Source: a virus. Taken from it: a stretch of 38,183 nt of DNA. This document shows positions 1,426-19,186 of the stretch, piece after piece. The notes below the pieces were generated by a model that was not told the origin of the DNA, ran no database searches, and was given only the letters and a program-made list of their open reading frames with translations. The DNA lies in the IMG/VR virus record IMGVR_UViG_3300030060_004116, positions 1 to 38,183 of that record; one strand, given 5' to 3'. Numbering within the stretch: the stretch's first letter is position 1; the number at the start of each line of letters is the position of its first letter. The position numbers and the translations under genes were made by a program.

Positions 1426-3285
1426 CTACACAACTTCGCAAGCGCCTCCTGCACAAGCAAGTTCGCCTGATAAATCAGTGTTGTCCTCTGCCTCATAAAC
1501 ATTATTTAGATCAACTTTAGTCAATGACTGAAGCATAACCTCATAAGTTTCCTTAGAGCAGTCCTCAAAAGGTGCTTGATCGTAATTACCACCATCGTAA
1601 GGTAGAACTGAAAGACCATTATACACATCGCGGTTTTCCCACATCCACTCACCAACATCTGCCCATTCAGACTCACGAATGCTTACAGTTGCGGAAACGT
1701 TGTGAGTGTTTTGACCCTTTCTATGACCTTTACGAACCCACTCGTTTGAGACCTTTGCCACTCGCTTGAGCATTGACATCGCTGATTCTGTTCGATAAAT
1801 TGCTCCTTCTGGAGACTTTTGTGGGATAGAAACAACGGCAGTATCATGGGGTCGAAAATACTCATCCTCAATCAACTCCTCGTGTGCCAGAGATAAGTAA
1901 TTGTAAATTGCTTCATTTTTACCGACTCGTAGACGACGAATATAATAATCATTATGCCAAGCGTGAATACCAGAAGAGGTTCCAAGTGTTAGGGAGGTTG
2001 TACCTGCTGGTTTAACACATGTTGTTCTCGCTGCCTCGCGGATATCAATCAGATTTGCAACTCTACTATTCTCTTCCTTAACTGCTTTAGCACCTGCCTC
2101 CATGTCTAAGTTGAGGACAGCACCAGATCCGATTCCTGTCATCGAGACACCGATTAGAGCGTCTTTCTCAGTGTTTCTACGCCATACATCGCGTAAATAA
2201 TGAAAGTCCGTGTAACCCGCTTGTAGGGTGCCTAAAAATGCTGCTGCCTTAACTCGGGATTCGTACTCTTCTTGGTCCTCTAAATCTGAAGCATTTACCT
2301 CAGTTAAGTTACAAAATTGGTACGGTCTGAGAGCAATCTCGCAACAAGGGTTTGTACCCCAGTCTTTGTCGTTGGAAAGGTAAATTCCTGGTTCACCTGA
2401 TCCTGATTTCTTAATACGATCCCAAAGTGACATAAAATATTCTTTATCAACCTTGTGACGTAGAATTACTGCTGAATTGTTTGCACGACCTCGTTGTGGG
2501 TTTGCCTCCCACCAACTGCCCGACTTAGCTGCAATCATTTCATCATCATCTGCTGAGAAGAGTGAAATAAGTGCTGCTCTGCGAATACCGCCTGCTAGAA
2601 CAGCATCGGCAATATGGCAAATCATATCGTGGACCTCAATTGTTTCAAGTTTGTCGCCGTTCGCCTTCTCTGAGAGAATGCCCTCAACCTTCACCAAGCA
2701 CTCACGTAGTGGTTGGGGTCCTGGTGCCTTACCACCAGAGGTTATAAGACGAGCACCCTTTGGACGAATGTCGCTGAAATCAAAACGAAGTTTAGATGTG
2801 CCCTTGAAATAAGAATAAACAAGTGCCTTTACAGAATCAGCCCAACCCTCAATAGAATCAGACACTAAGAAACGGCGAGTACGCTTTGGGTTTGGTCTGC
2901 GGATCTCTGGCAGTTTCTCAACATGGTGTGCCTGGACAGAAAAACCAACGCCAGTTCCACCTAATAAAAGGAACATGCACTCTGCAAAAGCATCAGGGTG
3001 ATCGATTGGCATATAAGCGCAGTTATATACACGGTTTGGGGCAACTTCAATTGGTTTGCCAGCAAACTGCATGGATCTCATTGAAGGCAAGACCTTCTTT
3101 GGTATGACAAAGTTTTCATATACTTCGGCAATTTCCTTCTTTAACTCTGGGTATTTCTTAATATGCATATCTCTGTTACGAGTGCAAAGTTCTACCCAGT
3201 TTTCTCTACGTTGTTGTTCTGGCAGGTATCTAGCGTACTTCATGTGTACGGTAATATCTGACAAAATTTCTGATGCTATTTCCAT
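1426..3285 (-). CDS. nrdJ: Adenosylcobalamin-dependent (class II) ribonucleotide reductase
   Basis: The enzyme makes deoxyribonucleotides with a B12-derived radical and would supply dNTPs for phage replication. The 619-residue chain resembles the monomeric ribonucleoside-triphosphate reductase type. Visible catalytic features are NCAYMPID with Cys89, NPCCEIAL with Cys314 and Glu316, and QFCNLTEV with Cys325. The 11-residue spacing of the second and third cysteines equals that of the family's active site. The C-terminus carries CAGGAC (Cys611 and Cys616), the usual pair that re-reduces the active site. It is shorter than the roughly 740-residue Lactobacillus enzyme. The start overlaps the helicase stop as TAATG with GGAG just upstream, so the two are probably translationally coupled. 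No intein or truncation is apparent. Confidence 0.93.
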   Translation of the reverse strand: MEIASEILSDITVHMKYARYLPEQQRRENWVELCTRNRDMHIKKYPELKKEIAEVYENFVIPKKVLPSMRSMQFAGKPIEVAPNRVYNCAYMPIDHPDAFAECMFLLLGGTGVGFSVQAHHVEKLPEIRRPNPKRTRRFLVSDSIEGWADSVKALVYSYFKGTSKLRFDFSDIRPKGARLITSGGKAPGPQPLRECLVKVEGILSEKANGDKLETIEVHDMICHIADAVLAGGIRRAALISLFSADDDEMIAAKSGSWWEANPQRGRANNSAVILRHKVDKEYFMSLWDRIKKSGSGEPGIYLSNDKDWGTNPCCEIALRPYQFCNLTEVNASDLEDQEEYESRVKAAAFLGTLQAGYTDFHYLRDVWRRNTEKDALIGVSMTGIGSGAVLNLDMEAGAKAVKEENSRVANLIDIREAARTTCVKPAGTTSLTLGTSSGIHAWHNDYYIRRLRVGKNEAIYNYLSLAHEELIEDEYFRPHDTAVVSIPQKSPEGAIYRTESAMSMLKRVAKVSNEWVRKGHRKGQNTHNVSATVSIRESEWADVGEWMWENRDVYNGLSVLPYDGGNYDQAPFEDCSKETYEVMLQSLTKVDLNNVYEAEDNTDLSGELACAGGACEVV

Positions 3286-4661
3286 TATTTATCTCCTTTC
3301 ATTTCTTGTTGCAATTCTTTATATTTTTCTCTTAACATATCTTTTTGTTCTTTCGCAGCATTTTTGCTGACATCCGCTGGATCGACTGAATTCTTTTCTA
3401 CTCTAATTTTTACATTGCTTGTATCCATGTGAACCGGATAAATCAACCCATCGGGACCGAATCGGTTTTTAGCCACAAAGAACCTGCCACTGTTATTATT
3501 TTTATCCTCGGTAGTTCGGGATAGAGTAAATATGAAGTCGGCAACAAAACATTTGGAAAAAGCCTCCGAAATTGACTCCATTGTTACAAGTTCTGCGTTG
3601 TACCCTGTCCTATTCGTCTGAGAAACGGTCCAAATGGGACATTTATTTTCTTGTGCAATTCCTCGCAACTCCTCATAAATTGACTCTAAATCGTGTCGTT
3701 TTTCACCATAACTCTTTTTAGGACTGATCAGATCAGCATAATCAACAATAATAACATCTGGTTCAATTCCACGCATCTTCAACTTGGAAAGATGGTTCTT
3801 AATTGCCGTAGTAGTAATTGATTTTGTTGGGTACTCTTTTACAATCAAAGTGCCCTTAATATCTTTGACCTTCTCTAAAATATTATCCTTAAACACGTTT
3901 AGATCTTTCAGTTTTACGCCTGTGATACATGAATCATAACGACGTGCAACAACTGTCTCAGAAAGTTCTAGAGTATAATGCACTACAGTCTTTTCATTTT
4001 TCAACGCTTGAGCGCCTAAGTGAGCAAGAATATGACTTTTACCGGCACCAGTTCCTGCCATGGCAACGCCAAGTTCACCAGCACCAAGTCCACCTTGCAT
4101 TAGGTCGTCAAAGGTTTTCCACCCTGTTGTCAGCGGACTGCGAATTTTAATCTCAAAACGCTTCTCAAAATCTTTTAGATAATGATAACCAAAGTCATTT
4201 GACTGACCCAACTTCAGTGCTTCGTTAATCAAATCACTAATCTCGTCAAATGAAGATTTCTCTAAAAGACGAACTGATTTTACGATCGCTTCTTTTAGTT
4301 TCTGCTTCTTACAAAAGTCCAAAGCAGTATCTTTGATATATTCCTCACCCTGCACTGCTGGGTCTGAGTGAATACGAATAAGGAAATCACGGACTTGTTT
4401 GATTACTAAGTCGTCTTCCTTGTCCATCTCTGTATTGATTAGAGATGCCATGAGGTTCATCGACGGATGAACTTCATATTTTTCTTTATATTGATAAATT
4501 AAATTTGTGAATCTTTTCAGATATTTCGTTTCAAAATATTCAGTTTCAAGTACCTCGCCAATCTGGTCAGAGTATGCCCTATCCATTAGGATAAGTTTGG
4601 CAAGGTTCTCTTGAAACATATTTCCGAACTTTGAAAAGTCCACTTTCTCGCTTGTACGCAT
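3285..4661 (-). CDS. 41: Replicative DNA helicase, DnaB/T4 gp41 type
   Basis: This 458-residue protein would unwind the replication fork 5' to 3'. Residues 1-150 are helical and resemble the DnaB N-terminal region. The RecA-like motor begins near residue 175: Walker A is GTGAGKSH (203-210), and VIIVDYADLI (303-312) supplies Walker B. LELSETVVARRYDS and VSQTNRTGYNAE, further along, match conserved DnaB-family blocks. A near-perfect sigma70 promoter lies just upstream at 4686-4714, with a short leader carrying AAGGTGAT. The stop overlaps the reductase start. No primase gene is visible in this window, so the partner primase must be elsewhere or provided by the host. Confidence 0.92.
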   Translation of the reverse strand: MRTSEKVDFSKFGNMFQENLAKLILMDRAYSDQIGEVLETEYFETKYLKRFTNLIYQYKEKYEVHPSMNLMASLINTEMDKEDDLVIKQVRDFLIRIHSDPAVQGEEYIKDTALDFCKKQKLKEAIVKSVRLLEKSSFDEISDLINEALKLGQSNDFGYHYLKDFEKRFEIKIRSPLTTGWKTFDDLMQGGLGAGELGVAMAGTGAGKSHILAHLGAQALKNEKTVVHYTLELSETVVARRYDSCITGVKLKDLNVFKDNILEKVKDIKGTLIVKEYPTKSITTTAIKNHLSKLKMRGIEPDVIIVDYADLISPKKSYGEKRHDLESIYEELRGIAQENKCPIWTVSQTNRTGYNAELVTMESISEAFSKCFVADFIFTLSRTTEDKNNNSGRFFVAKNRFGPDGLIYPVHMDTSNVKIRVEKNSVDPADVSKNAAKEQKDMLREKYKELQQEMKGDK

Positions 4662-4953: not shown

Positions 4954-5913
4954 TTAGTCCTTTAAGGAAGCAATCCTATTTGAGTGAGCAAAAAGGTCTG
5001 TCCAACTGATTTGTGGGAAACCATCCGTAAACATCATCTTAACAATCTCTGTTTTATTGTAATATCTTGAATAGTTATCTTTCGAATTCTTTACTATCTC
5101 TCTCACCTGGAATGAAACACTCGGGACGTATAGTTGCATAATCTTGTAGTTTTTTAGAATCTTGTCGTAATTGTCAATAATGCCTTCATGGATCTTTAAC
5201 TTGTTCTCTGTTTCTTCGCACGCATCAACTAAATCAGTTAAACTATAATCTTTTTCCTCTACCAAAAAGGGGAAACGCTTTGCTAGGGTCTTCAACCCTG
5301 CTCCTTTGACGCCTTGTAAATTATCACTTTTATCACCACTAACCGCTCTTGCTAGGGCAAAGTTATTTGGATGAATTTGAAACTCGTCCACAATATCCTT
5401 TTTATTTTTGAATACTGCTTGCACTGGACGATAAATAATTGTCTCATCATCCAACAATTGATAAAAATCTTTATCACTTGAAACAATTATTTTTTGCTCG
5501 CCCCTCAACTCCTGACATAAAATAGAAATCATGTCATCTGCTTCAACACCATCGTGTATCAACTGAATGAGGGGCAAATTGTCAAGATACTCAAACAATC
5601 TGAGTATTTGACGAATTTTACTTTGATTTTCTTCTTCCAAGGAAAGCGAAACACCTGTAGATCTATTCAATCTAATTGCTTTTCTACCTTCCTTGTATGA
5701 GGACACGACAGATCTTCTTCGTGAAGACCCGCCTGCCCCATCCCAACAAACGAAAACCTTAGTTGGTTTCATTTCTCTAATAAGTTTTTGTAGTGACTTT
5801 AGGAAACCAACCAGCCCACCAACGGGTAAACCGCTGTTAGATAAAGATGGATTTACTACATATGCCCTGTAGAATATATTTGTGCCGTCAATTATTAGAG
5901 ATCTTTCTGTCAT
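4954..5913 (-). CDS. rnh: RNase H / 5'-3' exonuclease of the FEN family (T4 Rnh-like)
   Basis: This 319-residue protein, close to the 305 residues of T4 RNase H, would remove RNA primers and flaps from lagging-strand fragments. It shows the FEN-type metal sites in order: LIIDGTNIFYRAY at the N-terminus, GVEADDMISIL near residue 125, VSSDKDFYQLL near residue 145, and GDKSDNLQGVKGAGLKTLA near 195-215, the helix-hairpin-helix that binds DNA. The start ATG overlaps the stop of the preceding 46-residue ORF (ATGA). Since the polymerase here lacks the nuclease part of bacterial Pol I, this protein supplies that activity separately. Confidence 0.9.
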   Translation of the reverse strand: MTERSLIIDGTNIFYRAYVVNPSLSNSGLPVGGLVGFLKSLQKLIREMKPTKVFVCWDGAGGSSRRRSVVSSYKEGRKAIRLNRSTGVSLSLEEENQSKIRQILRLFEYLDNLPLIQLIHDGVEADDMISILCQELRGEQKIIVSSDKDFYQLLDDETIIYRPVQAVFKNKKDIVDEFQIHPNNFALARAVSGDKSDNLQGVKGAGLKTLAKRFPFLVEEKDYSLTDLVDACEETENKLKIHEGIIDNYDKILKNYKIMQLYVPSVSFQVREIVKNSKDNYSRYYNKTEIVKMMFTDGFPQISWTDLFAHSNRIASLKD

Positions 5914-6050
5914 TTACCTTGTCCTCTGTATCGTTTCTTATATGTTTTTGATCGCTTGTTATGAAACTTCTTACTGAAAGTTCCATTTCCTTGATTTGTC
6001 TTCTTTTTACTAATTTTGCTGTGTGATCCCTTTTTAGATGAGTTCATCAT
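5910..6050 (-). CDS. 46-residue lysine-rich basic peptide
   Basis: This short ORF encodes a very basic peptide that begins MMNSSKKGSHSKISKKK and ends in YRGQGK. Roughly a third of its residues are Lys or Arg and none are Asp or Glu. Its ATG overlaps the uvsX stop as ATGA and its own stop overlaps the RNase H start as ATGA, so it bridges the two genes by coupled translation, good evidence that it is expressed. GGAGAA lies at the end of uvsX immediately before the ATG. Such composition suits a nucleic-acid-binding peptide acting with the recombination or primer-removal enzymes, but no family was recognised. Confidence 0.7.
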   Translation of the reverse strand: MMNSSKKGSHSKISKKKTNQGNGTFSKKFHNKRSKTYKKRYRGQGK

Positions 6051-7156
6051 TTCTCCTTCTTATCCTCATAAAAATCGCTTGAGTCCCCAATACGCTTGTC
6101 AAACTTCATTACAACTTCTTCTTCTAATAACTTCTGTACTGTATTATAAAATTTTTCTTCTTCTAACTTGCTTAACCACTGCTTTGATTGGAATTTATCT
6201 TGTGTCCCATCATCGTGATGTAGAGTGAACCATGCTCCAGCATTTGTTAGTTTATCAGACGACTTGATTGCCTCAAACCAACTTTCCTTGTCCATGATCT
6301 TGACTTGTTCACCTGCCCACAAAATCTTGAAAGCGCAGTTACGTCCCTGAGTTCCAAAGCGGGACTTCTCAATCTTTGCCTTGACCTCTGTACCAATCCT
6401 AAATCCCTTATCATCAAAGATGAAAGATGACTTGCCCTTACGTGCTGTTAACCAGATACGCAAAGAATAAGAATAAGCAAGTGCCTTACCACCTGGAGTA
6501 AAGTAAGGAGTTGTCATTGCCTCTGCTGTATTTCTTGTAATATTGGTCTTCAACTGATTTAGAATAAGCAAAGTTGACTTTGTATTTGCAATCGGTTGGA
6601 TTAACTTAGACATACCCTTGGAAAGAATACGAGGTTTCACTGCCATTGTAGAGAGTGGATTAAAGTCCGACTCAATATCAGAAACAGATGGTGTAAGTGC
6701 CATACTATCCCAGATAAAAAGCATTTGACTGTCATTATTTGCCAACAAACTCTCAATAGTTTCCAGCACAAACTCTACCGAACTCGCCTGGACATAAAGT
6801 AATTTCTCAATATCACATCCAGCATTTGCTAAGAAACCTGGATCAATAGAACTTTCTGAATCGAAATAAACAACATCAATTCCCATTCTTTGGGCATTAC
6901 CTGCAATCTGTGCTGCCATATAAGACTTGCCAGTTGCTTCTAACCCAGCAATCTCACTAACCTTACCCACAGGAATGCCACCCCAATCGCCACGCTTGAT
7001 AATACCATCTAACCATCTACACCCAGTCGGGATAAACTGATTTACTTCTGTTGGGTTGTCATCTGATAAAGAAAAAGCAACGTTAACGCCTGCTTTCTTG
7101 TTTATCAATTTTTTCATATCGGCAATAGACAATTTGCCGCTTTTTGTTTTTGCCAT
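6047..7156 (-). CDS. uvsX: RecA-like recombinase UvsX
   Basis: UvsX coats single-stranded DNA and drives strand exchange, which in T4-type phages also primes recombination-dependent replication. The 369-residue protein shows Walker A as GLEATGKS (71-78), the catalytic region VVYFDSESSID (95-105) and Walker B MLFIWDSMAL around Asp150. A glycine-rich stretch near TPYFTPGGKALAYSYSLRIW corresponds to the DNA-binding loop region before the helix shared with RecA. A sigma70 promoter (7201-7229) partly overlaps the hairpin in the gap before the gene, and GGAG precedes the ATG. The stop overlaps a lysine-rich small ORF. It lies directly after gp32-like SSB, its known functional partner. Confidence 0.92.
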   Translation of the reverse strand: MAKTKSGKLSIADMKKLINKKAGVNVAFSLSDDNPTEVNQFIPTGCRWLDGIIKRGDWGGIPVGKVSEIAGLEATGKSYMAAQIAGNAQRMGIDVVYFDSESSIDPGFLANAGCDIEKLLYVQASSVEFVLETIESLLANNDSQMLFIWDSMALTPSVSDIESDFNPLSTMAVKPRILSKGMSKLIQPIANTKSTLLILNQLKTNITRNTAEAMTTPYFTPGGKALAYSYSLRIWLTARKGKSSFIFDDKGFRIGTEVKAKIEKSRFGTQGRNCAFKILWAGEQVKIMDKESWFEAIKSSDKLTNAGAWFTLHHDDGTQDKFQSKQWLSKLEEEKFYNTVQKLLEEEVVMKFDKRIGDSSDFYEDKKEK

Positions 7157-7200: not shown

Positions 7201-7229
7201 ATTATACCACTTATTTAAGCAGAAAGCAA
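7201..7229 (-). promoter_or_regulatory. Sigma70 promoter for uvsX
   Basis: On the minus strand TTGCTT (7229-7224), a 17-base spacer and a perfect TATAAT (7206-7201) preceded by TGG, an extended -10 element. The -35 box lies in the last codons of the SSB gene. Predicted start is near 7194, about 38 bases before the uvsX ATG. Confidence 0.75.
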
Positions 7230-7955
7230 GGATTTAAATGCTTGGTCTGCTGCGTCATCGGTAGTCTGTGCATACTGAACAGTACCTGTGCTGTCATCAG
7301 TATCACCTGATAGATGTTGTTCCAACAGTTGCTGGACCTCATCAGTTGTCTTCTTAGTAAAGACATTATCATACTGAATCTCAGTCTCAACCAACTCCTT
7401 AGCCAACTCACGATCCTTGTGTAGAGGTGATGTACGACGTGCTGGGAAGATGTCAGTGCTTGGGAACATCTGACCTGCCTTCTTACCATAATTAATAGTA
7501 AGATCTGTGCCTTCCTCTGGGTCGGTAATATCACCGTACTCTGGATTTAGAACCAACTGAAGTAGCTTCTGATAAACAGTCTTGCTGTAACCCCAAAGAC
7601 GAACGCCCTTCTCCTCTTCACCACGGACGATTACCGGGGAAAAGAAACGCTGCTTTGCCATCAACTTCTTTGCTTCATCACGACTTTCCTCTGTACCATC
7701 ATTGAACAACTTGCGAACATACTTATCTAGCACATCCTCCTCACCAAAATTCTTCTTAGGTGATAGGAAACCAGGGGCGTTAGCAACATTATAATGGAAC
7801 CAATACTCCTTGAAGGGGTCACCGTCTGCATCTGGAACAATACGAATGACGGATTCGCCGTCTGTGGGTTTCCAAAATAGATTCTTGTTAGAACCTCCAC
7901 CCTTGTTCTCTGTAGAAGCGAGTTTTGCTCGCATTTTTTTCAAATCAATAGCCAT
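7215..7955 (-). CDS. 32: Single-stranded DNA-binding protein, T4 gp32-like
   Basis: The 246-residue protein covers ssDNA at forks and organises replication and recombination. Residues 1-25 are basic with LKKMRAKLA, like the gp32 cooperativity region. NLFWKPTDGESVIRIVP begins the OB-fold core, and the aromatic stretch EYWFHYNV follows. The C-terminal 35 residues are acidic (SGDTDDSTG, TTDDAADQ) and end SLLSA, matching the acidic protein-interaction tail. The usual gp32 zinc-binding cysteines are absent: I see no Cys in the chain. A consensus promoter within the preceding gene and a leader hairpin suggest separate strong expression, consistent with the large amounts of gp32 made by T4-like phages. 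Confidence 0.88.
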   Translation of the reverse strand: MAIDLKKMRAKLASTENKGGGSNKNLFWKPTDGESVIRIVPDADGDPFKEYWFHYNVANAPGFLSPKKNFGEEDVLDKYVRKLFNDGTEESRDEAKKLMAKQRFFSPVIVRGEEEKGVRLWGYSKTVYQKLLQLVLNPEYGDITDPEEGTDLTINYGKKAGQMFPSTDIFPARRTSPLHKDRELAKELVETEIQYDNVFTKKTTDEVQQLLEQHLSGDTDDSTGTVQYAQTTDDAADQAFKSLLSA

Positions 7956-7968
7956 ATTATTTTCTCCT

Positions 7969-8814
7969 TTATAAGACAGGTGATTTTCCTGTCTCGCTTT
8001 GTATATGATTAGTATAGTACATTATGTACACTTTGTCAACAGTATATCCCGATGAGAAAAATCCGTAAGATACTTCCTGAAATTCATTTTCTCTTGCTTT
8101 ATCCAATTTACGGGATACTAATTCTAAAACATTGCCTGTTTCTTTCAATGTTTCTTCACTAAAAGTAAAGTAAAAGTGTTTTTCTCTTACTCCTTCCAGT
8201 TCATAGAACTTCTGCTCTGTTTCGTCGTTCAAACTATACAGACCAAAAGTTGCGATCCTATTCTGCTCTTGTGGTTCTTCCAAGTTCCCCATCAACGCAG
8301 ATGCCTGTCCATAATACTCCATCAGGTGCCACATGTCAACTACTTTCTCGTTGACCTTCTCAAAATAATTGCCAATCGATATATCTGACGAGAGGTTAGA
8401 GATACTTTTGTTGGAAACCATCCACATTTTGTTGAATAACCCTGAACGAGCAAACTCTTGTAGAATATTCCTTACAACTCGCTCTCTTGTCTTACCATTA
8501 TTGTTCATAAATGAAGTATCAGGTTGAATATAAAGAAAATCAATCTTCTTATCACTGAAATTCTCTAAAATTCTAAGACAAGCACCTGTTATGAGTCCAG
8601 ATCCTGCCATTACACACAGAATATGGTCCGATTTTATATTATTTTTTAGTTCTTCAAGATTAATTTGAACCTTTTCTGCCTCTTCAATCGTCTTTACTTT
8701 AGGAAACTTTACAAAAGCATCGCTGTGATTGTCAATAGAGTATGTTTTATATCCTTTCTGCTCAAATATTTTACAGATCTCACGCCCTGCATTACCAATA
8801 CCAATTACTTCCAT
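7969..8814 (-). CDS. Divergent tubulin/FtsZ-like protein
   Basis: This 281-residue protein follows the tubulin/FtsZ plan. Residues 3-12 (VIGIGNAGRE) match the FtsZ T1 loop region and are followed by KTYSIDNHSDAF, like the next FtsZ strand and loop. Residues 64-83 contain HILCVMAGSG and LITGACLRIL, aligning with the FtsZ strand plus GGGTGTGAA signature, though only some glycines remain. DFLYIQPDTSF, NGKTRERVVRNILQEF and MWMVSNKSI (92-138) follow the order of FtsZ strands and helices, and a long helix like H7 follows. The C-terminal 95 residues could be the second domain. The ATG overlaps the polymerase stop. The N-terminus alone also fits an NAD-binding Rossmann fold. The degenerate signature loop leaves GTP hydrolysis uncertain. 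Confidence 0.55.
   Translation of the reverse strand: MEVIGIGNAGREICKIFEQKGYKTYSIDNHSDAFVKFPKVKTIEEAEKVQINLEELKNNIKSDHILCVMAGSGLITGACLRILENFSDKKIDFLYIQPDTSFMNNNGKTRERVVRNILQEFARSGLFNKMWMVSNKSISNLSSDISIGNYFEKVNEKVVDMWHLMEYYGQASALMGNLEEPQEQNRIATFGLYSLNDETEQKFYELEGVREKHFYFTFSEETLKETGNVLELVSRKLDKARENEFQEVSYGFFSSGYTVDKVYIMYYTNHIQSETGKSPVL
7974..7994 (-). promoter_or_regulatory. Hairpin in the SSB mRNA leader
   Basis: AGACAGG and CCTGTCT form a 7-base-pair stem with a 7-base loop, located in the last codons of the preceding gene and about 18 bases before the SSB start. It falls within the roughly 49-base leader predicted from the promoter at 8011-8039. T4 gp32 represses its own mRNA through a structured leader, so a similar role is possible here, but this is only inference. 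Confidence 0.4.
8011..8039 (-). promoter_or_regulatory. Sigma70 promoter for SSB, inside the tubulin-like gene
   Basis: On the minus strand TTGACA (8039-8034), a 17-base spacer and TATACT (8016-8011) match 11 of 12 consensus positions. It lies within the 3' end of the tubulin-like gene. Predicted start near 8004 gives a leader of about 49 bases containing a hairpin and AAGGAG before the SSB ATG. Confidence 0.85.
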
Positions 8815-9992
8815 TCTGTGCTTAGATCTCCTAGTGTCCTTCCGACCTGAATATTTAGTTTGAAGTCACCATATCTTGTCTGCTTGAAGGCATCCTTGAT
8901 TTGGTTTAATAGTTTGTAATCCATCCTATCAAAATCTAAAATCATACTATCATGAATAAGCATCGATACATAAGATTTAGCGTTATTGTCTTCTAAAATC
9001 TTAAATACCTTATACACCTGTTCTAAAAACAAGTCAGATGCCGTACTTTGGATTAGATAGTTGAGTGCATGATAATCATCTGCCTCAATTTCGCGGTCAA
9101 AGTCGGTTACAATCTTACCATCAGAAAAATATTTTTTCAACAGACCTTTTCGATCATACTTCTCAGATAAAAGTTTATCCTTGGAGTTGGGATTATACAA
9201 CCAAGCAAATATTCTCTGTTTCGCTTCAGAACGACTTGTACCGTCCTTAAATATATTCTTGATGTTCCAGTCGTGGATATCCCCTTTCGGTTGTTCACGC
9301 CCAAGCAGAGCGGTTAAAACACGCAATTCAAAGGCATTATAATCAAACTCAATGAAAACACCATTGTTTGGTGTAATCATAGTGCGATAATCTTTGTTTA
9401 GGGTGAGGATGGGAAATGAAGAGGGGGTAGTAGATAACCGCCCTGTAACAGTCCCGAAGGTGTTATAGTGGATGAAGGCGGGACTACTTGAATACCTCTT
9501 GATGATCTTCCTGATACGGTTGTCATTCGCTGCCGTATAAACATTAGTAAGGTCCAAGTTCAATTGGTGCTTTGAAATAGAATGAACTAAACGTTCAATT
9601 TTCTCTAACTGACCATAATTCTTTGGTTCTGGAAAGTTCTTTACTGCAAGTTCCATCGCTTTATTCTTGAGATTGAAAAAATCTTCAATAAAAGTCTTGC
9701 CTACCAATTCATCTAAACAATGTCCACGAGGGTCATACCCACACACGCTGTATGACTTGAGAGTATTTTTGATCTTGCTCTCAAGTGACTTGTACTCATC
9801 TGCATCATGTTTTGGGAGCAGTTCCAAGTAATCTTTTCCACCACAGAACAGTTTTACAAACTTAACATCCTGTGGTAAATCCTCTTGATAAGTCCAAGTA
9901 TACTTCATACCCTCGTCATAATCTGAGAATACTTTATCATCTGCATAGATGCTCTTGCAGTTATTTTTTGAATCAATTTTTGAGAAAAACAT
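8805..9992 (-). CDS. polA: Family A DNA polymerase, polymerase domain only
   Basis: The replicase is reduced to 395 residues. It carries the complete Pol I active-site set: TGRLS (183-187), motif A FDYNAFELRV with Asp217 and Glu222, an O-helix RSEAKQRIFAWLY with Arg254, Lys258, Phe262 and Tyr266 at canonical spacing, the helix NYLIQSTASD, and motif C IHDSM (346-350). Motif C has Ser where Pol I usually has Glu. No 3'-5' or 5'-3' exonuclease domain is present, and the thumb region is short. I chose Met at 9992 over the upstream in-frame ATG at 10058 because AAGGA lies directly before it and it starts just after the preceding stop. A proofreading subunit may be encoded elsewhere, as reported for Rhodothermus phage RM378. 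Confidence 0.9.
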   Translation of the reverse strand: MFFSKIDSKNNCKSIYADDKVFSDYDEGMKYTWTYQEDLPQDVKFVKLFCGGKDYLELLPKHDADEYKSLESKIKNTLKSYSVCGYDPRGHCLDELVGKTFIEDFFNLKNKAMELAVKNFPEPKNYGQLEKIERLVHSISKHQLNLDLTNVYTAANDNRIRKIIKRYSSSPAFIHYNTFGTVTGRLSTTPSSFPILTLNKDYRTMITPNNGVFIEFDYNAFELRVLTALLGREQPKGDIHDWNIKNIFKDGTSRSEAKQRIFAWLYNPNSKDKLLSEKYDRKGLLKKYFSDGKIVTDFDREIEADDYHALNYLIQSTASDLFLEQVYKVFKILEDNNAKSYVSMLIHDSMILDFDRMDYKLLNQIKDAFKQTRYGDFKLNIQVGRTLGDLSTEWK

Positions 9993-9999
9993 TAAGTCC

Positions 10000-11475
10000 T
10001 TAAGAAAAGTCTGTACTAATATCGACAGGTGAAACAGAGAATATGTTTCCTTCTTCATCCTGCTCTACAAGAGTAGCAAACTCTTCAGTACCTGTCAAGG
10101 GTTTTTCTTTGGCTCTTTTAATAAAAAATTTAAAATCTTTTTTGTTTTCATCATCCGTTGTTTTACTTCTGGTGTTTAAATACAACTCTAAATAATTTAT
10201 TGCTTGGTTTAAGATATATAATTTTTCTGTAATAGTTTTTAATTGAAAGTTTTTTTGATTATATAGAGTGATAATATTGTGTACTGTCTTTGTTAAGTTT
10301 TTCAACTCGGATTTTGTTAATTTAACACGCTTTTCAATTGCTCTAAATTTAATATAGTATTCAACGCTGCTTTTTTTAATCGAACTTGAACCATCGCTTC
10401 GCTCAACTGTAAAGTCACCAAAGACTGCTTTCTTTCTTTTAATCTTGTTTGTCTCAAACTTATTTTTAAATGAAGAATCAGAATTAAATTCAGAAATATT
10501 TGAATATTTTTCAATAAATCTGTTGTACATCTCTGCAATAAAACTCATAAATTCTAATATTTTTTGTTCACTAGACTCATTAAAATTTACTGATTGAAAA
10601 TATTTTTTATAGACAAGTTTGGGTAAATCAGATGCTTTAGTGTCAGCGGGAAAATATTTTGATATAAAAAGATTTACTAATTTTTCTGATTGAATATCTG
10701 CTATTAATCTTGCAGGATAATTTGGATCCACCCTTAAACCATTGATCTTAGCAACATAATTTAAAACTGGAAATCTAACATCGTTTAAAATTGTGTTTAT
10801 ATCAGATTCACTATTTACAGTAAAATAATCAAATGCAAGACCAGTATTATATATGTTATATTCACTAGATTCAAAAAATCCAGTCTTTGTAGCAAAAGTA
10901 TTTTTTTCAGAGAACCATACATAAAATAGATTAATAAAGTCATCAAAATTAGAAATTTTGTTTGAATATTTAATTGGGTCTAGAACCTCGTTAAAAAATT
11001 GAACATACAACTTATTTGAATATCCTCTATAGTTTTCAGTCTCCTGATATGCCCTTTTTATTGTTATATTATTTAACTTGCTTCTTGGATGGGTGGGTCT
11101 TTCTTGATTATATTGCAATAAGAAATTGTTTACCGCATCTGTTACAAAGTTTATTAAAGAGAAGTCTGTTCCTTCGACTTTTTTCAAAGCTGTTAGCAAT
11201 GCTATAAACTTTACTATTCTATCGTCATAGTCATACTTGCCATATTTTTTTCTTCCATACCAGAGATCCAACTGGTTTTTTAAAACCTGACCTTTAAAAT
11301 TATCTACACCAACAGGAAGATTGTCCTCGTTTACTTTTTGTTTATAGGTCTTTCTTGACTCATATAAATCTTTTGTACCATCGGATTCAACAGGAACCTC
11401 TATTAACACTTGTGGCAATTTTGGTTTGGGTTGAACCGGAGTTTCTGCTAATAATTCTTTAAGATTAATCTTCAT
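10000..11475 (-). CDS. Unidentified protein at the end of the tail module
   Basis: This 491-residue protein belongs to no family I recognise. It is rich in Lys, Asn, Phe, Tyr and Ile, and its DNA is visibly more AT-rich than the capsid and sheath genes. The first 30 residues include a proline-rich TPVQPKPKLPQVLIEVP stretch. A helical region follows, and IAKINGLRV-like hydrophobic strands appear near residue 250. There is no signal peptide or membrane helix. It follows a large putative baseplate protein by 14 bases and precedes the polymerase by 7 bases, so it joins the tail and replication modules. A tail or baseplate role is inferred from position only. Confidence 0.7.
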   Translation of the reverse strand: MKINLKELLAETPVQPKPKLPQVLIEVPVESDGTKDLYESRKTYKQKVNEDNLPVGVDNFKGQVLKNQLDLWYGRKKYGKYDYDDRIVKFIALLTALKKVEGTDFSLINFVTDAVNNFLLQYNQERPTHPRSKLNNITIKRAYQETENYRGYSNKLYVQFFNEVLDPIKYSNKISNFDDFINLFYVWFSEKNTFATKTGFFESSEYNIYNTGLAFDYFTVNSESDINTILNDVRFPVLNYVAKINGLRVDPNYPARLIADIQSEKLVNLFISKYFPADTKASDLPKLVYKKYFQSVNFNESSEQKILEFMSFIAEMYNRFIEKYSNISEFNSDSSFKNKFETNKIKRKKAVFGDFTVERSDGSSSIKKSSVEYYIKFRAIEKRVKLTKSELKNLTKTVHNIITLYNQKNFQLKTITEKLYILNQAINYLELYLNTRSKTTDDENKKDFKFFIKRAKEKPLTGTEEFATLVEQDEEGNIFSVSPVDISTDFS

Positions 11476-11489
11476 AATTAAATTTCAAC

Positions 11490-14426
11490 CTATTGGTTTA
11501 CACCACCCTGATTAACTACTTTCTCAGCATTTGCAAGTGGACTGGGATTGTCAATCACAGTAATTTCTTCAACGTCCGCGTTGGCTTCGATCTCTATATT
11601 GTCCAAGTCTGCAATAAGGTCCTCTTCTTGTGCCTTATCCTTTTTACTAATAATTTTATTGATTGGACCTTCTTTTCTTTTTAACATTGCCTCAGCATTA
11701 ATACCAACATAATTTATTATGGAAACTGATAAATTAGTAGAGGGGTTTAAAACAGACTTCCTGATGCTCTTATCATACTTTGCCAATTCTCTAACCAAAA
11801 TAGCAGAGTCTCTCAAAATACAAGAAGCGTTTAAAGACTTAGTGTATTGCCCTGCGTCGAGTTGTAAGTTATCAGTAACCTGCAAGATTGTGTACAACCC
11901 ACCGATCTCAAAATCATTTGTTGCTGCTTCTTTTTTTAATTTGTTAATTTCTTCTTGACTTTTATTTACTAAATCTTCTGGTAAAGAAATTGGAGTTGTC
12001 TTTCCAAGAGTATAACTGGGAACATAAACAAGATTACTAAAATCATAAATCTTATTTCCAAAAAGAGTGGCGTTGATATTGTATTGATAGTTTGTTGATA
12101 TAATATCGCTTGCTACTTCAGGTTTTAAAACATTTAACTCGTAGGAAAGATTTGTAAGGAACTCATCAGAACTCGCATTGAATGTTATGTTCTGAAGTAG
12201 TCCATCTGCTGAACCTAAAACTAGTTTACCAATACCAAACTCCTGCAATTTGTTATCATCTTTAAAGAAGTTTTCTCTAAATGCATTCAATCTCTCTGAC
12301 ATGAAAAGTTTTGAATTCTCATAGAAAAGGTTAAATGCCTGACCATAAAAAATACATCCTTCTGCGGATTTAATATCCGCATCATTAAAATACTTGCTGC
12401 AAAATTCATCAAAGTATTTTCTCTCACCGACCAAAAGATCGATCTGCGGTCTAAACCCTCTAGTAGAATTATCTTTAAAAAATTCAGAATTTGAAAAATT
12501 TATGAAACTTCTAGCGATGGTTGGCAATGCTGATTTTTGTTGTGAACTATCAATTAAGTAATTCTTAAAAAACTTATTAAATAAAAATTGAAAAAATTGT
12601 GTTGGGTTTGCTTCTGGATAAATTTTAAAGAATTCACGAAATAATACTTTTGCCACATCAACAGTTAATGGAATATCACCAATGTTGCACCAAAACTTAT
12701 CTCCACTTGGCAAAGGAAAAGGGATGTTTCCTAAAATAATAGTGGGTGGTGGTTTGGGATTATCTAAACTTCTCTCTGCAATATATGAAACTAAATTTAT
12801 AATATCACGAACAAATATAAACTCAATGGTAACTGGACCAGATTTTGTCTCAGCATAAGATAGATTAAATACTTCTTCTATAATTTTATTTGCTGCATCT
12901 TTCTCAAGGTCGGTGCCGCCTGGTCCAACCAAGTTAAACGCTTCGATGATCTTATCACTATAAGAATCTCCTGGTGCAGCAGGTGGTTCATTTTTTCGAA
13001 GAGTTTCAAAATATTTTAAAAGTTTATCTCGGAAGTCATCAACCTTTACTGTAAAACTTTTTTCAGTTATTCCGTTTAGCGGAGTAATGTCTGGTAGTTT
13101 TATTTCATTTTTAACTTTGTATTGTATCTTCCGTGGACCTTCGCCGTCAACTGAAAACTTTTTTATTTCATATGTAAATTTGTTTGTCAAATTACGCTTT
13201 CTTGCTAAAGTTATTATATCTCTAGCATACTCGGAAAATTTTGTATTGCCTTGAAGTTTTTTCAAATCAGTCTTATATTTTTTCAACAATCTTTTTGCTT
13301 CTGTGATCTCTTCTTTATTTAACTTAACTGTTTTGTCTTTAAGGTTTTTTGTTGCTTTTTGTTTAATAAATTCTTGATACTGTTTAATGTCTTTCTGTAA
13401 TTGCTTAATTCTACTTTTTCTTTTTTCGTCTTTAGCATTGGCGTCTATAAAAGAAGGCAATGTTAAGATACCTGTTTTAAAATTTTGACTGTCGTTTGAA
13501 TCTACAAGTTGTTTTGGAATATACTCAACATTAAGAGTAAAACTGCCATCAGCATTAAAGTTTATTGAGTGCTGGAGGGCGTTTAATACAAAGTAAGACT
13601 TTTCAAACTTATTAATAACTTCTCTTTCTTTTGGAGTTAATATTAATGGTGAAACACCCTCACTGAAAGTCCATCCATATTCCAACAAGAGATTGAAACC
13701 CTTAACCTGTGAGTCTTCATCGTCCTTCTTTGGAGGTCTTCTAATCAACTCTTTGTAGGTTACAAATTTTGCCCTTTCAAAAAAGTTGGTTCCAACAAAC
13801 GGACCACTCAAATTGCTTTTGTAGGAAACCCCATATAATCTACCTTTATCAACCGCTGGTTTTCTAATAAACACATCATAAGATGAAAAGAAGAACTGAG
13901 CATTTAAAGTAATCGGATCAAAATCTCCGGTAATATCATACTGACGATTAACTGTAATTGATTTAATACCAGCACCTTCGCCTCTCGATGCTGTCTTCCC
14001 ACGATTTTTTATGAAATATTCAATATCAAATGATTTGTTAAAAATTATTGGGATTGCATTTTTTTTAAGATCTTGAATTTTGTTACCAGAACTTCTATCA
14101 ACTAAATAAAATTGAGCATAGGGTGTTAGAGCAGACAACTTCTCAGTTTTTATCTTCTCCATAATCTGGACATGTTCTTTTCTCATTTCTGTCTTAGCAT
14201 TTTTTGCATAAGACTCAAAATCGCAACCGAATGATGGGTGTAAAGATATTAAATTACTTTTAGGGAACTTTTTTAAATTTTTGATCTGCTGCTGTTTTAT
14301 ATTTGCATACAAATAACCATCTGCCGATTTATTACTTATTTGTGGTAATAAAACTTGAGTTAAGATTTGTTGCTCAACTGTTGACCCCTTCTCATCGGAA
14401 GTGTATGCTGGTATATAAAAGTCCAT
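11490..14426 (-). CDS. Large putative baseplate protein
   Basis: The 978-residue protein has no motif I can assign with confidence. It begins with MDFYIPAYTSDEKGSTVEQQ. Residues about 130-330 look beta-rich (ITGDFDPITLNAQFFFSSYD, FNLLLEYGWTFSEGV, FNADGSFTLNVEYIP). A lysine/glutamate-rich helical stretch near 340-410 could be a coiled coil. The middle contains PPPTIILGNIPFPLPSG, and the end is acidic. It directly follows gp53, with only a single base between the genes, and is the longest protein after the sheath, so a baseplate hub or wedge part is the likeliest role. It cannot be equated with gp6, gp7, gp10 or gp27 from sequence alone. Composition is AT-rich. Confidence 0.7.
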   Translation of the reverse strand: MDFYIPAYTSDEKGSTVEQQILTQVLLPQISNKSADGYLYANIKQQQIKNLKKFPKSNLISLHPSFGCDFESYAKNAKTEMRKEHVQIMEKIKTEKLSALTPYAQFYLVDRSSGNKIQDLKKNAIPIIFNKSFDIEYFIKNRGKTASRGEGAGIKSITVNRQYDITGDFDPITLNAQFFFSSYDVFIRKPAVDKGRLYGVSYKSNLSGPFVGTNFFERAKFVTYKELIRRPPKKDDEDSQVKGFNLLLEYGWTFSEGVSPLILTPKEREVINKFEKSYFVLNALQHSINFNADGSFTLNVEYIPKQLVDSNDSQNFKTGILTLPSFIDANAKDEKRKSRIKQLQKDIKQYQEFIKQKATKNLKDKTVKLNKEEITEAKRLLKKYKTDLKKLQGNTKFSEYARDIITLARKRNLTNKFTYEIKKFSVDGEGPRKIQYKVKNEIKLPDITPLNGITEKSFTVKVDDFRDKLLKYFETLRKNEPPAAPGDSYSDKIIEAFNLVGPGGTDLEKDAANKIIEEVFNLSYAETKSGPVTIEFIFVRDIINLVSYIAERSLDNPKPPPTIILGNIPFPLPSGDKFWCNIGDIPLTVDVAKVLFREFFKIYPEANPTQFFQFLFNKFFKNYLIDSSQQKSALPTIARSFINFSNSEFFKDNSTRGFRPQIDLLVGERKYFDEFCSKYFNDADIKSAEGCIFYGQAFNLFYENSKLFMSERLNAFRENFFKDDNKLQEFGIGKLVLGSADGLLQNITFNASSDEFLTNLSYELNVLKPEVASDIISTNYQYNINATLFGNKIYDFSNLVYVPSYTLGKTTPISLPEDLVNKSQEEINKLKKEAATNDFEIGGLYTILQVTDNLQLDAGQYTKSLNASCILRDSAILVRELAKYDKSIRKSVLNPSTNLSVSIINYVGINAEAMLKRKEGPINKIISKKDKAQEEDLIADLDNIEIEANADVEEITVIDNPSPLANAEKVVNQGGVNQ

Positions 14427-17986: not shown

Positions 17987-18610
17987 CTAATAAGTTGTAG
18001 TTGTACCAATGTCGTTAACATAAGTTAGAGATGCCCAATCATAAGTTACTGTAAATGTGGTACCCAATAAAGAAGCACCAGTGTAACTTAACTGCGAAAA
18101 CTTAATTCCTGTTACAAAAGCATTGTAAAGAGTCCATTGTTCGTATACATCACCATCAGGATTGATTATTTGAACAGCAACTTCACCCATGGATTCCATT
18201 AAACTAGACTTGCTCATATCTTTAAGATTGTTAACATCAATTTGGTTAGGGTTATCATACCCTAATTCTTTATATTTTTTTAGAGCAATACCAGAAATAG
18301 AGTCTAAAAGTCCATTATCAAACGATTCCCTTACAGTAAAGGTAATTGGATCCCATGTTACAATGCCACTTGGATTTTTAAATTTCCAATTTAACAACTG
18401 GAACTCTTCTGCGGAACCAAAGTTTGGACTTGGACGTGATACATCAGAAACCATCGCAACTGGAACACCACGGACCCTTAATAAGAATCGCCAGTTAGAC
18501 TGTAAAGACATTCTTACAGCGTTGGGCACCTCAGCAAGATCAAGTTGTTCTTGACTTCCTGCCTGTGCCCTTAAATTCGCTCTTCTTTGTATTTCAGATG
18601 AAGTAGACAT
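17987..18610 (-). CDS. Tail tube protein paralogue, gp19-like (second copy)
   Basis: The 207-residue protein repeats the layout of the preceding gene: VRGVPVAMVSDVSRPSP, a FQLLNWKFKNP strand and VQIINPDGDVYEQWTLYNAF match GEIPAWVVTDASRPSP, GHQFKFPG and KVLDSDGNVVERWTLRNPF there. Both are the gp19 tube fold. One copy probably builds the tube and the other a specialised ring at an end of the tube; which is which is not visible. The start is uncertain: the ATG at 18610 lacks a Shine-Dalgarno, while an internal ATG at 18511 would give a 174-residue protein nearer to T4 gp19 (163 residues). The first 33 residues are polar and unlike its sister. Confidence 0.8.
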   Translation of the reverse strand: MSTSSEIQRRANLRAQAGSQEQLDLAEVPNAVRMSLQSNWRFLLRVRGVPVAMVSDVSRPSPNFGSAEEFQLLNWKFKNPSGIVTWDPITFTVRESFDNGLLDSISGIALKKYKELGYDNPNQIDVNNLKDMSKSSLMESMGEVAVQIINPDGDVYEQWTLYNAFVTGIKFSQLSYTGASLLGTTFTVTYDWASLTYVNDIGTTTTY

Positions 18611-18619
18611 TTATAGTAA

Positions 18620-19186
18620 TTATGCTACTGTTGTGTTTTGGTTTGCCTCAAAAATTTCTAAATCAGCATAATCATATTGAAAATCTAATTTAACTGTATT
18701 AATTGCGTTACCGCCATACTGTAAGTTTGAGTATGTTACACCGTTAACAAAGGGGTTTCTAAGAGTCCATCTTTCAACTACGTTGCCATCTGAATCTAAA
18801 ACCTTGATTGAGATGTCACCTAAGTTGCCATTTACAAATCTCTCTTTTGAGAATGTTGTACGCCAACCTTCGTTATCGGCAGTCCAAGTTGATGGAGTGT
18901 TGTAACCCGCTTTCTTAACAACGTCTAGAACTAGACCAGATACATCAGGATCGATAGGTTCAACAAGAGTAACAGAAACATCGTTCCACTGTAACTTTCC
19001 TGGGAATTTAAATTGATGACCTAAGAACTCATGTTGTACCTGACCACTGAATCTTGGACTTGGACGGGATGCGTCTGTTACAACCCATGCTGGAATCTCG
19101 CCCAAAGTCAAGATAAATTTAAACTGTCTCTTTGGTTCAATTTTAACTGACGCCCATGGTGGAATTGGTGTTGCTTTATTTGGCAT
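18620..19186 (-). CDS. 19: Tail tube protein gp19-like (first copy)
   Basis: This 188-residue protein would form the inner tail tube through which DNA passes. Its visible signature is FILTLGEIPAWVVTDASRPSP at residues 24-44, given here as key elements FILTLGEIP and TDASRPSP. These are followed by HEFLGHQFKFPGKLQWNDVS, and by SDGNVVERWTLRNPFVNG near 130-147 and DFQYDYADLEIF at the end. GGAGAGTAGGAG upstream of the ATG is a very strong ribosome-binding region, as expected for a highly expressed gene. It directly follows the sheath gene, as in T4. Confidence 0.85.
   Translation of the reverse strand: MPNKATPIPPWASVKIEPKRQFKFILTLGEIPAWVVTDASRPSPRFSGQVQHEFLGHQFKFPGKLQWNDVSVTLVEPIDPDVSGLVLDVVKKAGYNTPSTWTADNEGWRTTFSKERFVNGNLGDISIKVLDSDGNVVERWTLRNPFVNGVTYSNLQYGGNAINTVKLDFQYDYADLEIFEANQNTTVA

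Follow-up and report, generated by a model that had tools for sequence, protein, structure and literature searches.

The window (the whole stretch of DNA analyzed, 38,183 nucleotides of the virus record IMGVR_UViG_3300030060_004116) encodes on its minus strand, at positions 7969–8814, a 281-residue protein, here given the working name TUB, that by predicted fold and profile homology belongs to the tubulin superfamily. Its gene appears to form part of the core replication operon in a large group of T4-type phages, all uncultured, whose DNA polymerase is of family A. The protein is best regarded as representing a new and divergent family of tubulin-like phage proteins, outside the FtsZ, TubZ, PhuZ, and CetZ families, in none of which it is filed because its T4 and T7 signatures fail. 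The preferred explanation of its function, held with a little less than even confidence, is that TUB is a compact, divergent nucleotide-binding member of the superfamily that assembles and organizes the phage replication site; binding, polymerization, and function are all inferred.

The reading frame occupies the minus strand, and the plus strand of the same interval contains many stops. Comparison with six close relatives gave dN/dS values of 0.08–0.17, so TUB evolves under purifying selection. The FtsZ-like sequence blocks that an earlier note, made from the letters alone, had quoted for this protein are all found in the frame.

Two AlphaFold2 models were computed, one for the window protein from an alignment of 20 sequences (pLDDT 88.8, pTM 0.88) and one for a main-branch homologue, L083, with 51 sequences from which the window's clade was excluded (pLDDT 94.5, pTM 0.91). 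The order of elements is the same in both, and each predicts an N-terminal Rossmann-like GTPase domain, a central helix H7, and a C-terminal activation domain, which is the complete two-domain layout of tubulins. When the window model was compared with the PDB by Foldseek, the 50 best rows were all FtsZ or CetZ (best E 3e-12, TM ~0.65). In VIA-align the same model matched Bacillus TubZ with a Z score of 23.4 (3.2 Å over 277 residues), CetZ with 23.3, FtsZ with 22.0, and tubulin with ~20, and the L083 model matched CetZ with 24.8, TubZ with 23.4, FtsZ with 22.1, and tubulin with 21.4. For both models these matches, with Z scores of 20–25, cover 255–279 residues and thus run end to end. The best match among viral predicted structures was an uncultured-phage protein that is annotated as FtsZ and shares 15% identity. 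At the level of models, computation confirms that TUB has the tubulin fold. The earlier note had proposed a divergent FtsZ/tubulin-like protein, to be refuted by a fold search placing it with NAD-binding Rossmann proteins or another family with no tubulin fold, or by a predicted structure lacking the two-domain layout of tubulins; on both counts the outcome was tubulin, and the proposal holds.

The training set of AlphaFold2 included tubulins, and a profile comparison that uses sequence only provides an independent check of the fold. An hhalign comparison of 56 TUB family members with 37 FtsZ sequences gave a score of 43.6 (P 3.9e-5; second value, P 3.1e-5) over 155 columns, pairing positions 4–166 of the TUB family with 36–214 of FtsZ, with T1, T4, S5, H5, S6, and the T6/H7 junction in register. 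The best of 60 comparisons with column-shuffled FtsZ profiles scored 22.2, which bears out the claim that the order and spacing of the blocks are FtsZ-like beyond chance, and seven unrelated families of the same phages reached P 0.018 at best against FtsZ. The Pfam tubulin model PF00091 misses the window protein, its best E value in one family member scanned being 0.73. Against PhuZ of phiKZ the family profile aligned over 29 columns only (P 0.056), FtsZ itself reaching only P 0.0016 against the same single sequence, which makes the comparison a weak one, and a search of phiKZ with the TUB family profile gave no match.

PHROGs, Pfam, and NCBIfam do not recognize TUB, and single-sequence searches of these collections and of the PDB returned only weak Rossmann matches to its N-terminal part, which taken alone would have refuted the note's proposal. 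Such matches, from single sequences or narrow profiles, to domains of the 6PGDH, UDP-glucose-dehydrogenase, and KtrA types (residues 2–90) are what could be said for TUB being an NAD(P)-binding protein of the Rossmann type, an oxidoreductase or regulator, rather than a tubulin. That interpretation is barely tenable, as the match of the UDP-glucose-dehydrogenase-type set is limited to the 31 columns of a beta-GxGxxG-alpha unit and is lost in a wider PDB profile search, and as both models show a tubulin-like C-terminal half. Because the dehydrogenase profile covers these 31 columns only, the early Rossmann matches stem from the opening part that the two folds share; homology to FtsZ extends beyond this part, over the 155 columns supported by the controls. 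With no match to a whole NAD domain and a C-terminal domain that is tubulin-like in the models, an NAD-binding Rossmann dehydrogenase was rejected.

The nucleotide-binding loops were followed through the relatives (all coordinates within TUB are on the minus strand). The T1 loop, GIGNAG (residues 5–10; 8785–8802), keeps the glycines of the GxGxxG pattern in 54–55 of 56. N135 (8410–8412), which aligns with the base-contacting asparagine of the FtsZ IPN motif, presumably the equivalent of tubulin N206, is kept in 48 of 56 TUB sequences. At the start of H7, YFEKVN (residues 150–155; 8350–8367), an aromatic residue and an asparagine align with guanine contacts of FtsZ and tubulin: Y150 is kept in 52 of 56 sequences, an aromatic residue or histidine occupies position 151 in 48, and N155, aligned with the asparagine of the FtsZ AFGAAND stretch and taken here to correspond to tubulin N228, is kept in 48. 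As far as residue conservation can tell, with no binding data, the guanine-contact positions of FtsZ and tubulin are mostly kept in TUB. Conservation within the family peaks at the end of H5, which reads LQEFARSGLF in the window protein (residues 118–127; 8434–8463) and LQEYARSGLF as the family motif, with Q119, R123, S124, and F127 invariant in 56 sequences. This motif is a signature of the TUB family and, by inference, a candidate site for a partner or an interface.

Other signatures are degenerate or missing. The T4 pattern [SAG]GGTG[SA]G is absent; the window protein has AGSGLITGA, of which GSGLITGA (residues 71–78; 8581–8604) occupies the T4 position in the FtsZ alignment as a degenerate GGGTGTG, and the glycine loop is thus as degenerate as the earlier note had described it. 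The family mostly has GSGxISGA, and some relatives are less degenerate (GGGKTTG). Between H7 (147–170) and S7 (187–194) of the window model neither the T7 loop NxDxx[DE] nor H8 is present. Within this gap (residues 171–186; 8257–8304), where T7 would be, an acid at position 183 is conserved in 49 of 56 sequences and R186 in 51 of 56; acid 183 may replace the catalytic T7 residue, which is not proven. The stretch matching T3 of FtsZ is much shorter, the AlphaFold2 model lacks H8, H9, and an H11 tail, and T3, H8, and H9 appear from the models to be shortened or lost.

The degenerate T4 of the window's clade, the absence of a canonical T7, and the shortened or missing T3, H8, and H9 count against the preferred explanation. 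Together with the invariant, family-specific H5-end motif and a location exclusively between polymerase and SSB genes, they favor instead a non-polymerizing accessory factor of the replisome with a tubulin fold, which would act as a nucleotide-dependent switch or as a clamp-like partner of polymerase or SSB and would dock via the invariant end of H5. This alternative is a serious though unproven possibility, and because T3, T7, and H8 are reduced in TUB it is almost as likely as the preferred explanation. It is weakened by the retention of the base-contact residues and of an acid near the T7 position, and by the general knowledge that the well-studied members of the tubulin fold (FtsZ, tubulin, TubZ, PhuZ, and CetZ) polymerize.

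Comparison with these members places TUB apart from each of them. It shares with FtsZ the whole-length fold, the order of T1, T4, S5, H5, S6, and T6/H7, and the asparagine/aromatic/asparagine base-contact positions, but is only ~14% identical, has degenerate T4 and T7 motifs, has T3, H8, H9, and the C-terminal peptide reduced or lost, and is a phage replication-operon gene. TubZ, the partition protein of plasmids and prophages, is likewise a tubulin of mobile elements, and its Bacillus structures (4ei7, 2xka) gave Z scores among the highest with both models; TUB, however, is ~100 residues shorter, adjoins polymerase and SSB, and lacks the C-terminal H11 tail that is seen in TubZ and PhuZ, a lack that also counts against the preferred explanation. 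CetZ, the archaeal cell-shape tubulin (3zid, 4b45), gave the top score for the L083 model but differs from TUB in sequence, in gene context, and in the elements that TUB is missing. PhuZ, which forms the spindle of jumbo phages, is phage-encoded as TUB is. Its filaments position replicating phage DNA, and it is a non-core, non-essential gene (PMC12908238). A role around replicating phage DNA is thus established for PhuZ and only proposed for TUB, for which PhuZ is, by analogy, the closest functional precedent.

The operon position was also part of the earlier proposal, and the linkage to polymerase and SSB holds in about 100 loci. The stop of the polymerase gene and the start of TUB overlap by 10 bases, ATGGAAGTAA (8805–8814, minus strand), an overlap that the note had also described; translational coupling is possible. 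The family A polymerase (8805–10058; 417 residues) lies on one side of TUB and, as the note had also said, a single-strand DNA-binding protein of the gp32 type (SSB; 7215–7955) lies just downstream, followed in order by the UvsX/RecA recombinase (6047–7156), a 5'-3' exonuclease (4954–5913), a DnaB-like replicative helicase (3285–4661), and ribonucleotide reductase (1426–3285), all on the minus strand. Genes for head and tail of the T4 type lie on the other side of the window. Large terminase, portal, prohead protease, gp23-like capsid, sheath, tube, baseplate hub, and UvsX were identified, in agreement with the assignment to a T4-type phage.

Several features of these genes were noted in passing. 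The family A polymerase is short, its Pfam match comprises the polymerase part only, and a gene of its own encodes the 5'-3' exonuclease. Locus comparison identified orf491 (10000–11475, minus strand; 491 residues), of unknown function, as the conserved upstream neighbor of the polymerase; this protein and one of 978 residues at 11490–14426 have no convincing family match and keep synteny with the polymerase across the whole clade. Two adjacent tail tube genes (17987–18610 and 18620–19186) both match PHROG 4542 and look like the product of a tandem duplication.

An initial IMG/VR scan yielded 13 TUB loci with 86–97% identity. More distant loci were reached from the polymerase (36–41% polymerase identity), and a TUB homologue occupied the same place wherever the contig extended there. 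With a search profile of 20 sequences, 24–92% identical to the window protein, at least 597 IMG/VR stretches were found to encode a TUB relative, of which the best 80 were retained. Across 110 loci, the upstream neighbor was the family A polymerase in 101 of the 101 that contain it and the downstream neighbor was the gp32-type SSB in 106 of 106; the start of TUB overlaps the polymerase stop in 65 of 80 loci, and the gene order is conserved onward to UvsX, exonuclease, helicase, and ribonucleotide reductase. Several of the 110 loci come from the same contigs as overlapping fragments, and all were gathered by similarity to TUB or to the polymerase, so the counts describe this clade and not all T4-type phages. 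In the sampled clade the linkage of TUB to the polymerase is strict and overlap of the genes is frequent.

This location also bears on the idea that TUB acts on host FtsZ as a decoy or inhibitor and, by co-assembling with FtsZ or capping it, would block division during infection. The FtsZ-like fold would suit such a role, and FtsZ is a known target of phage proteins, T7 Gp0.4 among them (PMC13423816). An invariable place between polymerase and SSB is nonetheless unexpected for a host-takeover gene, and the elements reduced in TUB are those of the longitudinal interface of FtsZ, which leaves the decoy an unlikely explanation.

Outside these environmental contigs the family was not detected. No relative was found when three family members were compared by tblastn with 50,697 records of cultured phages, and profile searches detected no TUB in the cultured phages that come closest in capsid or terminase, namely the Flavobacterium immuto phages, Microcystis phage Mel-JY01, and RM378. 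The order SSB-UvsX-exonuclease-helicase-ribonucleotide reductase also exists in Mel-JY01, together with a polymerase-like gene, yet no TUB was found at that place. This polymerase-like gene (L154:10398–11624), annotated as hypothetical, matches the clade polymerase profile (6e-13), and the phage also has a family B polymerase. In a collection of prokaryote genomes the only match was in a metagenome-assembled genome (MAG) of candidate division WOR-3 (L115; CP070664.1, 2243237–2260037), where a 5-kb phage piece with the order orf491-PolA-TUB-SSB-UvsX is flanked by two scaffold gaps of 100 N. With such gaps on both sides it is most likely an assembly or scaffolding artifact, from which a host gene would be inferred wrongly. 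No publication on the family was found in the open-access full-text literature (PMC), subscription papers and preprints being outside the scope of the search.

The tubulin model of Pfam does not detect TUB but matches a second place in two of the larger records. The protein encoded there, TUB2, is a canonical FtsZ-like protein of 344–365 residues (L159:5387–6481 and L160:5508–6542, both on the minus strand; also in L161–L240) with the motifs GGGGGK (T1), GGGGGTGS (T4), DNE, and FDSKDL (T7), and has 208 relatives in IMG/VR. It is a tubulin-superfamily protein of the same phages, with profile similarity to FtsZ at P 2.5e-13 and to TUB at P 2.4e-4, but differs from TUB in length, in its canonical T1, T4, and T7, and in lying outside the replication operon. 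TUB2 occurs in only a subset of these T4-type phages, and its location with respect to the head genes varies or is unresolved. That TUB is present on all seven TUB2 records of at least 127 kb would fit a system of two tubulins of which TUB is one half; on the next TUB2 record, of 123 kb, no TUB was seen. Such a system is highly improbable as an account of TUB, since the two genes are not adjacent and since TUB occurs without a detected TUB2 on records of 141 kb and 193 kb, including a close relative of the window (record completeness is not established).

Under the preferred explanation, that of an assembling organizer of the replication site, TUB would be produced concurrently with polymerase and SSB and would bind guanine nucleotide through its GxGxxG loop and the conserved asparagine/aromatic/asparagine base contacts. 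It would then assemble, probably head to tail, into a scaffold that organizes the site of phage replication, anchors it, or positions it. In the protofilaments of tubulin and FtsZ, T3, T7, and H8 contribute to the longitudinal contact (PMC3678025); because these elements are reduced in TUB, its filaments would perhaps be only short or atypical. The operon position suggests a link to replication, not filament formation. A more specific proposal, conceivable but on balance doubtful, is that this T4-type clade replicates its DNA with a non-canonical tubulin dedicated to that task, which is translated together with polymerase and SSB and acts at or around the fork; to this, TUB2 in a subclade adds a two-tubulin cytoskeleton.

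The phage tubulins of the literature cited come from nucleus-forming jumbo phages, where PhuZ is a non-core gene, and from plasmid-like prophages, where TubZ serves partition. In hundreds of phage contigs from the environment TUB appears to be a fixed component of the replication operon, and its position between the polymerase and SSB genes suggests a cytoskeletal protein within the copying or organization of phage DNA. If TUB polymerizes or works with the polymerase, it would provide a direct link between tubulin and the phage replisome, and it would be a compact natural variant with which to ask what parts of the tubulin fold nucleotide-driven assembly needs.
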